Program-made: the position numbers and the translations under genes | The notes under the pieces: model-generated | The model's database searches: none | What the model was told of the DNA's origin: nothing | Seen by the model: only the letters and a program-made list of their open reading frames with translations | Shown here: positions 25,486 to 37,971 of the stretch, in pieces | Numbering within the stretch: position 1 is the first letter of the stretch | How the letters are laid out: each line of letters opens with the position of its first letter | Assembly: GCA_030613055.1 (NCBI GenBank) | Contig: JAUWMR010000007.1 | Coordinates: 1-64,000, forward strand | Reading direction: 5' to 3' | DNA from: Desulfobacteraceae bacterium | GTDB taxonomy: Bacteria > Desulfobacterota > DSM-4660 > Desulfatiglandales > Desulfatiglandaceae | Length of the DNA: 64,000 nt

Positions 25486-25593
25486 CCTTAGATCTGCAGC
25501 ACCCTCGACTTTTGCAACGTTAGGGTAAACGCATTGCACAGTTGAAGCTTATCCTTAAGATGTGAAAAGGGGGTCTTTAGCGGGAGGAATCAA

Positions 25594-26943
25594 ATGACAC
25601 ATTATTTTGCGCCAGCCATTGCGGTTTTGTTGCTTATAATATTGACCCTGTTCATTTCAGGGCATACGTGCTGCCAGGAAAACAGCAAGAGAATTACGAT
25701 ATTTTACACCAATGATCTGGAAGGCACACTTGAACCCTGCGGGTGAGCAAGCAACCCCATGGGGGGGATAGCTCGTCGAGCTACTTCGATCAATAATATC
25801 AGAGAACAGGGCATACAGACGATCTTGCTGGATGGCGGGGAGTTTGCGTCGGAATTAAGTGAACTGGGCCGGATAAAATTTGAAACTCTATTAGAGTCCT
25901 TTCTTCAATTGCAATATGATGCCATATCCTTTGGCGAACGTGAAATGTTGATGCAGAATGAGGGATATGACGCATGTGGGGTCCTGAATTCATCCGGAAT
26001 CCCGATTATAACACTCAATATTTTACACAAGGGAAAGAGGTTCAGGGAAAATCCATTGATAATTGATCGGGGAGGCATCAAAGTTGGCATATTCGGCCTT
26101 TTATTGAAACATAATATCCCCGGGGCACTGAGAAAGGATTGGGTGATTGAAGATCCGGAAAAGGTCATCGAGGGAGCCTTATCCTTTTCAAGAAATAATG
26201 CCGATTTTGTCGTTGCAATCCTTCATGGGGATGTGTCTTTGGTTCGAGATTTTGTAAAAAAACATGGGGGAATGGATATCGTGATAGTGTCAGGAAATAC
26301 CGGTGAAGATCCATCACATTTAAAGATCGATAATTGTCTGCTGGTCTCCGCGGGGAAGCGGGGCAGGTATCTGGGTAGAATTGACGCCTCTTTTTATAAC
26401 CGTAAGTGGCAATTTAACGACCAGACAGTCGCTCTCGACAAATACGTTCCAAAGGATCCCATGTTGACGGCAACTTATGAAGGATTCCAGGAACGCGTGA
26501 AATGGATGACAAGAAAAGGTGCAAAAAAAATCGAGGGAGAGGTAAGGGCCAGGTTTTCGTCTCTACTTTGTTCAGTGACATGTATGACATGTCACGGAGA
26601 CATATATGACGCATGGGATAAGACGGCCCATGCCCATGCCATTGATTCCCTGATCAGCAAGAATGAACAGTACAATCCGGAGTGCGTGGCCTGCCACACT
26701 ACGGGATACCTGGAAGGTGGATTCGTTTCCATGGAAACAACGCCCCAGTACGCGGGTGTCCAATGCGTTTCCTGCCATGGAAGGATGGAAGGGCATATTG
26801 GTTTGCACTCCGGAATGAAGGCCCAATTACAGGCCGACGCGGCGACAGGTGCCGAGGTAATAAAAGATATATGCGTGAAATGCCATACAGTAGAACGCGA
26901 CGACGATTTTGATTTTGAACGGGACAAGAAAAAAGTCCATTGA
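25594..26943 (+). CDS. Tetrahaem cytochrome with metallophosphatase-like domain; probable selenoprotein (UGA at 25744)
   Basis: Read through one in-frame TGA (25744-25746), this is a 449-residue protein. GGGAGG precedes ATG 25594. Residues 1-27 are a signal peptide or anchor. A 5'-nucleotidase/UshA-like domain (about 32-300) includes FYTNDLEGTLEPCG-U51-ASNPMGG, ILLDGGEF, FGEREML and VAILHGD. Four CxxCH haem motifs follow: CMTCH 330-334, CVACH 364-368, CVSCH 391-395 and CVKCH 427-431, so it is likely a periplasmic cytochrome. In relatives I know the motif reads EPCGC, so U51 replaces a Cys. A stem-loop (25769-25783) lies within SECIS range. The alternative is a nonsense mutation, but the frame on both sides is intact and another selenoprotein lies nearby. 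The native reaction is unknown. Confidence 0.72.
25769..25783 (+). promoter_or_regulatory. Possible bacterial SECIS stem-loop
   Basis: TAGCTC and GAGCTA form a perfect hairpin (stem 25769-25774 with 25778-25783) whose apical bases are GTC, or CGTCG if the last pair opens. It begins 22 bases after the TGA at 25744. Bacterial SECIS elements need a small hairpin with a G near the start of the loop at about this distance. The element is plausible but less canonical than the one in hdrA. Confidence 0.5.
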
Positions 26944-35520: not shown

Positions 35521-37971
35521 ATGAAAACAAACGTCGTTGTAAAAGAATCAGAAAGCATTGAAGCACAGCCACGAATCGGCGTCTATGTCTGCCACTGCGG
35601 CCTTAATATAGCCCGGATCGTGGACTGCGAAAAGGTAGCCGAATTAGCGTCATACCTTGATGACGTAGTCGTATCAAAGAATATCACCTATGCCTGTTCG
35701 GAACCGGGGCAACAGGAGATAGTAGACGACATCACTGACCAGGGCCTGGACCGGGTCGTGGTCGCCTCATGTTCACCAAGACTCCATGAACCCACATTCC
35801 GGCAGATGCTTAAGAAAGCTGGTCTTAACCCCTATCTTCTGGAGATGGCCAACCTTCGTGAGCAGTGCAGCTGGGTTCACATGAAGGAAAAGGATGCTGC
35901 CACAGAAAAGGCCATTGATCTCGTTAAGATGGCTGTTTCCCGCGCGCGCCTCCTGTATCCCCTCATTGAAGAGATCCTGCCCCTTACAAAAAGAACGCTG
36001 GTCATAGGCGGCGGTATCGCGGGAATCCAGGCTTCGCTTGACCTTGCAGATAACGGCTATGATGTGGTCTTAGTGGAGAAAAGGCCATCCATCGGCGGGA
36101 CCATGGCCCAGCTCGATAAGACTTTTCCGACTATGGACTGCTCTATCTGAATACTCGGACCGAAGATGACGGATGTCGGTCGACATCCCCGGATAAAGCT
36201 TTACACTATGAGCGAGATAGTAGACGTCAAGGGCTATGTAGGCAACTTTGATGTAAGTATTTTAAAAAAGGCCCGGTACGTTGATGAAACGGATTGCACC
36301 GCATGTGGTGATTGCGTTGACGTCTGTCCCGTAGTTCGCCCTGACGAATTTAATCTCGGATTATCATCGCGCAAGGCTATTTTTATGCCCTTTCCGCAGG
36401 CCGTCCCGTCCGCATACCTGATCAACGTCAATGAATGCTTAGGTCATAACCCGGTTGTATGCGCTAAGTGTATTGAGGCATGCGACAAGGATTGCATTAA
36501 CTTTCACATGTCTGATGAAGAGATCGTTGAAAGCGTTGGTTCAATTGTCGTTGCTACCGGACTTTCTGTGTACGAACCCACAGAATTAGATGAATATGCA
36601 TACACACGGTTTGAAAATGTTCTAACAAGCCTTGAGTTTGAACGCCTCATCAATGCGGGAGGTCCTACCCAGGGAGAAGTCATACGCCCCACAGATAGAA
36701 GACCGCCTAAATCCATTGGCTTTATACAGTGCGTTGGTTCCCGGTCAGCAAGGAAGGGAGCCAGCTATTGTTCCAATGTCTGCTGTATGAATACGGTAAA
36801 GGGCACTCTCATGCTCAAAGAACACTACCCGGATATAGATATCAAGGTGTTTTATATTGACATACGTGCCTTTGGCAAAGGGTTTGAAGACCTTTACCGT
36901 CGCAGCCAGAGATTAGGCGTACAATACCTGAGAGGGCTGCCCGGTACGGTTGAAGAAATTGCGGATCAAAGCCTGCGTGTGTCCATTGAAAACACTGTTA
37001 AGGGCAGACTCGAGACCCACGAACTGGATATGTTAGTGCTGGCCTTAGGGATCAAACCGGCGACTGGCACCAGAAAACTTCAGGAGATGTTAGGTCTCCA
37101 ACTCACGCCTGACGGTTTTTTCTTAGAGGCCCACCCCAAACTCCAGCCGGTAGATGCCGCGACAAGGGGTATTTTTTACGCGGGATGCGCCGAGGGCCCC
37201 AAGGATATCAAGGAAAGTGTGACCCAGTCGTCCGCGGCGGCAGCCCGGGCTATCAGGTTAATGCATAAGGGGGAAATAACCACAGAGCCCATTACTTCTG
37301 AGGTCATACCGGAAAACTGTACATCGTGCGGGAAATGCGCGGAAGTTTGCCCCTATAACGCAATAACCGTAGATATTAAAAATAAGATCCCTGCCGTGGT
37401 GAACAGTGCGGCCTGTGCCGGGTGCGGCACCTGTGCGGCAGAATGCCTTTTTGACGCCATTATCATGAACCATTTCACCGATTCCCAGATCCTCAACCAG
37501 GTGGACGCTCTTTTGGAGGAGAGCCCCAAAGAAAAGATCCTGGTATTCGCCTGTAACTGGTGTTCCTACGCGGGGGCCGATTTTGCTGGTGTTTCCCGTA
37601 TCCAGTATCCCCCCAATGTGCGTCTTATTCGAACCATGTGTTCGGGCCGCGTGGACGAAAAATTTATCTGGGATGGATTTGGAAAGGGCGCGCCTGTAAT
37701 TTTGGTAAGCGGATGCCATATCGGAGATTGTCACTACATTGATGCCAATCACTGGACAGAAAAACGCGTAAAAAAGGTGCGCAAAAAGATGGATAAGTTA
37801 GGTATTCGTCCGGAACGGCTTCAATTAGAATGGATCAGCGCGGCCGAAGGCGTTCGGTTCGCGGAGGTAATGCAGCGCATGGAGACCCTCCGCCGGGAGG
37901 TCACAGCAGAGGAAATTGCGGAAACCATCCGGATCCTCAAAGACCGGAAAAAAAAGAAAAAACAGGTTTAG
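35521..37971 (+). CDS. hdrA: HdrA-MvhD fusion, selenocysteine-containing (UGA at 36148)
   Basis: Read through one in-frame TGA (36148-36150), this is an 816-residue protein. HdrA domain: IGVYVCHCG near 19-27, FAD site VIGGGIAGIQ 161-170, then TFPTMDCSI-U210-ILGPKMTDVGRHP. Many HdrA proteins have Cys at U210, and Sec here is known in methanogens and several Desulfobacterota. Fe-S motifs: C259/C262/C265/C269, a second Cys-rich stretch (CLGHNP...CAKCIEAC), CTSCGKCAEVCP (600-610) and CAGCGTCAAEC (632-642). A C-terminal MvhD domain has CNWC 678-681, CSGRV, and C732-HIGD-C737. HdrA is the flavin-based bifurcating subunit; the MvhD domain couples it to an electron donor. A GGUC-loop hairpin follows the UGA. 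No ribosome binding site is strong. The frame is clean on both sides. Confidence 0.9.
36171..36188 (+). promoter_or_regulatory. Bacterial SECIS element in hdrA
   Basis: GGATGTC (36171-36177) and GACATCC (36182-36188) form a perfect 7-base-pair stem with the loop GGTC. The loop's GGU lies 27 bases after the UGA at 36148-36150. A GGU/GGUC apex is the known SelB recognition feature, so this strongly supports selenocysteine insertion. Confidence 0.85.

Follow-up and report, generated by a model that had tools for sequence, protein, structure and literature searches.

A divergent UshA-like tetrahaem protein with a probable selenocysteine codon in a Desulfobacteraceae genome

An in-frame TGA may be a lesion in a gene or a codon for selenocysteine, and the question of which applies is raised by one gene in the window (by which we mean the whole 64,000-nucleotide stretch of contig JAUWMR010000007.1 analysed here). 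The frame runs from 25594 to 26943 on the forward strand, as do all features of the gene described below, and its 449 residues are interrupted by a single TGA at 25744-25746, in the context EPCG-U-ASNPMGGIARRA, after which 398 codons follow before the terminating TGA at 26941-26943. The ATG at 25594 is preceded by a Shine-Dalgarno-like GGGAGGAA (25582-25589), and the N-terminus has the character of a signal peptide (25594-25674), with a predicted hydrophobic helix at residues 5-23. A UshA-like domain of the metallophosphatase fold, with eroded metal ligands, occupies 25681-26433 and includes the Cys-Gly-Sec motif (25738-25746), and a tetrahaem cytochrome c554-like domain occupies 26569-26940, where Pfam PF13435 matches residues 329-396 at 59.5 bits against a cut-off of 20.8. 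The haem motifs are CMTCH (residues 330-334, 26581-26595), CVACH (364-368, 26683-26697), CVSCH (391-395, 26764-26778) and CVKCH (427-431, 26872-26886), each apparent in the sequence and in the homologue alignment. A preliminary description of the locus had reported this layout, namely a frame with signal peptide and ribosome binding site, one TGA, 398 further codons and four CxxCH motifs, and our reading of the sequence confirms it; the tetrahaem region gains additional support from the Pfam match.

The machinery for inserting selenocysteine, which the preliminary description had proposed as a check, is present in the same genome in the form of selA (622 bits), selB (392 bits), tRNA-Sec (71.7 bits) and two copies of selD. 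Furthermore, the codon aligned with position 25744 is TGA in 52 and TGC or TGT in 7 distinct homologous sequences, which were drawn from across the phylum and from related genomes, and many of these 59 are less than 30% identical to the window protein; given this match, the in-frame TGA is not a chance occurrence. An alignment of 36 sequences shows no variation at Cys49, at Sec/Cys51 or at any of the haem Cys and His residues, and on the tree the sister pairs L077/L083 and L080/L081 are each split between a Sec and a Cys form. A Cys version is also found outside the phylum, in a Planctomycetota homologue (L120, 3896-5335) that carries EPCGC and a tetrahaem domain. In one homologue (L061) SGR replaces CGU while the haem motifs are kept, and the loss of both residues together is a hint that Cys and Sec work as a pair. 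The alternative of an ordinary Cys protein whose TGA arose by nonsense mutation or by sequencing error, leaving a pseudogene or an artefact, would require one base change from TGC or TGT, and Cys versions do exist, but it is ruled out as a negligible prospect by the recurrence of TGA at this codon in homologues of many families (52 distinct sequences), including relatives at 50-55% identity and below, and by a conserved downstream frame with intact haem motifs. The comparative evidence is thus strong that the gene very probably reads this stop codon as selenocysteine, and both the selenoprotein call and the Cys-to-Sec exchange at EPCGC that had been suggested earlier are borne out. As a separate observation, each of the two selD genes (C87:567-1493 and C68:31712-32638 of genome G000) has one in-frame TGA, which probably makes both copies of SelD selenoproteins in their own right.

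Insertion of selenocysteine would be expected to depend upon a SECIS element, and the preliminary description had pointed to a small hairpin in suitable range. The published model of the bacterial element specifies a stem of 4-16 bp, an apical loop of 3-9 nt, a distance of 16-37 nt from the UGA and a G within the first two loop positions (PMC13188914). The window hairpin, UAGCUC-GUC-GAGCUA (25769-25783), satisfies these constraints in its geometry, with a 6 bp stem (25769-25774 paired with 25778-25783), the loop GUC and a distance of 28 nt from the UGA. Between the window gene and its two closest relatives, whose proteins are 50-55% identical to that of the window, the four stem codons are unchanged and the loop codon alone varies; elsewhere in the gene identical codons are found for 25% of conserved residues (39/153), although the hairpin stretch was picked after looking, and the comparison should be read with this in mind. 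The same hairpin occurs in L087, and in L083 the stem displays a compensatory synonymous double change (GCU/CGA to GCC/CGG). In most other Sec members a hairpin at the adjacent GG-L codons carries GGUCU in its loop instead; this type occurs in 33 of 52 Sec and 2 of 7 Cys sequences, and in none of 9 ordinary UshA sequences. Against synonymous-codon controls the hairpin showed no excess stability (p 0.155), the codon-shuffled test was negative for the Sec group (mean z -0.34) as it was for the Cys group (-0.38), and an Rfam search returned no SECIS family match. As the stability test was negative, we regard this hairpin as a likely rather than a proven SECIS element; the existence of the hairpin noted earlier is confirmed.

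The preliminary description had also considered the protein a probable new selenoprotein of a type not previously described, and in this respect it must be revised. The NCBIfam model NF041198, 'UshA-like (seleno)protein' (UshA_like_PCGU; CxU), matches all 36 aligned members, and its 519 positions extend over the UshA-like portion as well as the haem region. Ocean metagenomes had yielded UshA-like CxU selenoproteins by 2008 (PMC2398784), and two reviews, of 2022 (PMC9312934) and 2026 (PMC13188914), list them too, and as such the kind is already known; the cited sources give no function for the family. The window protein scores 241.1 bits (E 2e-71) with this model, over both regions and with the PCG-U/C motif and haem region in model order, which is below the curated cut-off of 275; the relatives L075 (248 bits) and L076 (240 bits) fall under it as well. 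These three form a fully supported branch on a long stem, and the tree places the window protein among other members of the family, though the deep forks are weakly supported. Given the scores and the long stem, we file the protein as a divergent relative of the same kind, short of formal membership under the curated threshold, and as a new addition to the described UshA-like PCGU selenoproteins. We assign a probability of roughly 0.9 to this reading, a selenoprotein of UshA-like kinship. When genome contigs were searched with the window protein alone no relative emerged, while a search with a three-sequence alignment yielded six loci, of which the informative ones were L120 and L119 (the L076 locus), the latter a close relative from a MAG labelled Deltaproteobacteria; no relatives were found in viral contigs.

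The members of NF041198 share with the window protein the PCGU position, the order of UshA-like domain and tetrahaem region and the exchange of Cys and Sec. The window protein differs in being without the ~70-residue insert of the long members and in having a hairpin unlike the common GGUCU-loop type. The second family of UshA-like (seleno)proteins, NF049981, has a related fold with Sec but a shorter profile (262 positions) and a CxxU motif (PMC13188914), and the window protein reaches only 49.8 bits against its cut-off of 140. Cytochrome c554 (PF13435; PDB 1bvb) has the same tetrahaem CxxCH pattern, but is free-standing, with neither UshA domain nor Sec. ExtKL (NF040886) and MccSep (PDB 9wt8) are likewise multihaem cytochromes with Sec, yet they match only the haem part of the window protein, and weakly (20.1 and 15.7 bits); a literature search for MccSep found no paper. 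In L092, L093 and L096 two UshA-like selenoprotein genes adjoin, a ~350-residue PCAU form without haem motifs being followed by the haem-fused PCGU form.

What such a protein might do is best approached through its front half, which matches 5'-nucleotidases by sequence (PDB 3ivd, E 2e-9) and whose predicted fold has matches among the structures of 5'-nucleotidases, E. coli UshA being one of them, and of SoxB; the UshA/5'-nucleotidase-like domain proposed earlier is supported by this and by the homologue and profile evidence. The AlphaFold model, built from three sequences, has good confidence only for parts of residues 30-280, and is poor at residues 43-57 (the CGU loop) and in the haem domain, too weak for an estimate of the Sec-haem distance. 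UshA 5'-nucleotidase and the SoxB thiosulfohydrolase (TIGR04486) share with the window protein the fold and the motif GG-x-x-x-R-A-T, but are without CGU and without haems. When the canonical dinuclear-metal ligands of ordinary UshA proteins (D-x-H, D, N-H, H-x-H) are mapped onto the family they are found to be mostly replaced, and the window protein does not carry the ligand set of the UshA and SoxB hydrolases (D-x-H, D, N-H, H, H-x-H); the ordinary UshA proteins keep these ligands, including the paralogue of the same genome (L039). A phosphoesterase or nucleotidase that still works through bound metal, with Sec as a metal ligand and haem electrons tuning its activity, would be in keeping with the UshA-type fold, the position of C-G-U/C in the loop immediately following the first metal-binding strand and the retention of D41 and H211, but in the window protein D-x-H has become D-L-E, GD has become GE, GNHE has become GERE and GHTH has become GNTG, and we consider this reading improbable. 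Since this erosion is family-wide, hydrolysis at the metal pocket is unlikely, and of the C-G-U redox or metal site wired to haems that had been envisaged, the metal version is weakened and the redox version becomes the likelier.

The loss of ligands, the invariant CGU/CGC and the four haems together suggest a hydrolase fold converted to redox work. On the comparative evidence SelB and tRNA-Sec, guided by the hairpin 28 nt downstream, would read the UGA of codon 51 as selenocysteine. The protein would be exported, its mature form consisting of a UshA/SoxB-type domain with a decayed hydrolytic metal site followed by the C-terminal tetrahaem c554-like domain. The invariant Cys49-x-Sec51 pair (Cys-Gly-Sec), kept in place of the hydrolytic site, may form a reversible selenenyl-sulfide or act as a soft nucleophilic site within the old active-site cleft, where it would exchange electrons with a substrate in the periplasm, possibly a sulfur compound; the haems may in turn connect this exchange, in either direction, with the respiratory cytochrome network. 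For this redox mechanism taken alone, a periplasmic Cys-Gly-Sec pair coupled to four haems, we judge the chances to be slightly under even. A narrower form of the same explanation would have the protein act upon sulfur compounds in the manner of SoxB (e.g. thiosulfate, polysulfide or S-sulfonate chemistry), with CGU taking the role of carrier or nucleophile and the haems acting as a sink or source of electrons. Of the named families SoxB is one of the nearest (matched by 24 of 36 members at E<=1e-10), and its structures match the predicted fold, but the resemblance is limited to fold and shared motifs, with 39 bits against a SoxB cut-off of 550, and this more specific version appears doubtful; it is only by virtue of SoxB kinship that one may reasonably think of a sulfur compound as substrate. 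To return to the broader proposal of a haem-wired redox pair, we tentatively suggest, as a possibility that falls somewhat short of an even chance, that the window protein, L075 and L076 constitute a separate, undescribed UshA-like subfamily, with its own type of hairpin, in which a hydrolase fold that has lost its activity now serves as a Cys-Gly-Sec oxidoreductase wired to haems.

Comparison of the window with the loci of the two closest relatives yielded no substrate or conserved operon partner. The window gene is preceded by an AAA/DUF4143 ATPase and followed by a 2-oxoacid:ferredoxin oxidoreductase and an Hdr-like cluster; the neighbouring genes differ in the two relatives, and thus no operon partner is indicated. 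Elsewhere in the window a TGA (36148-36150, in TMDCSI-U-ILGPKM) splits an HdrA-type gene (35521-37971), which we take to be the known Sec-HdrA arrangement.
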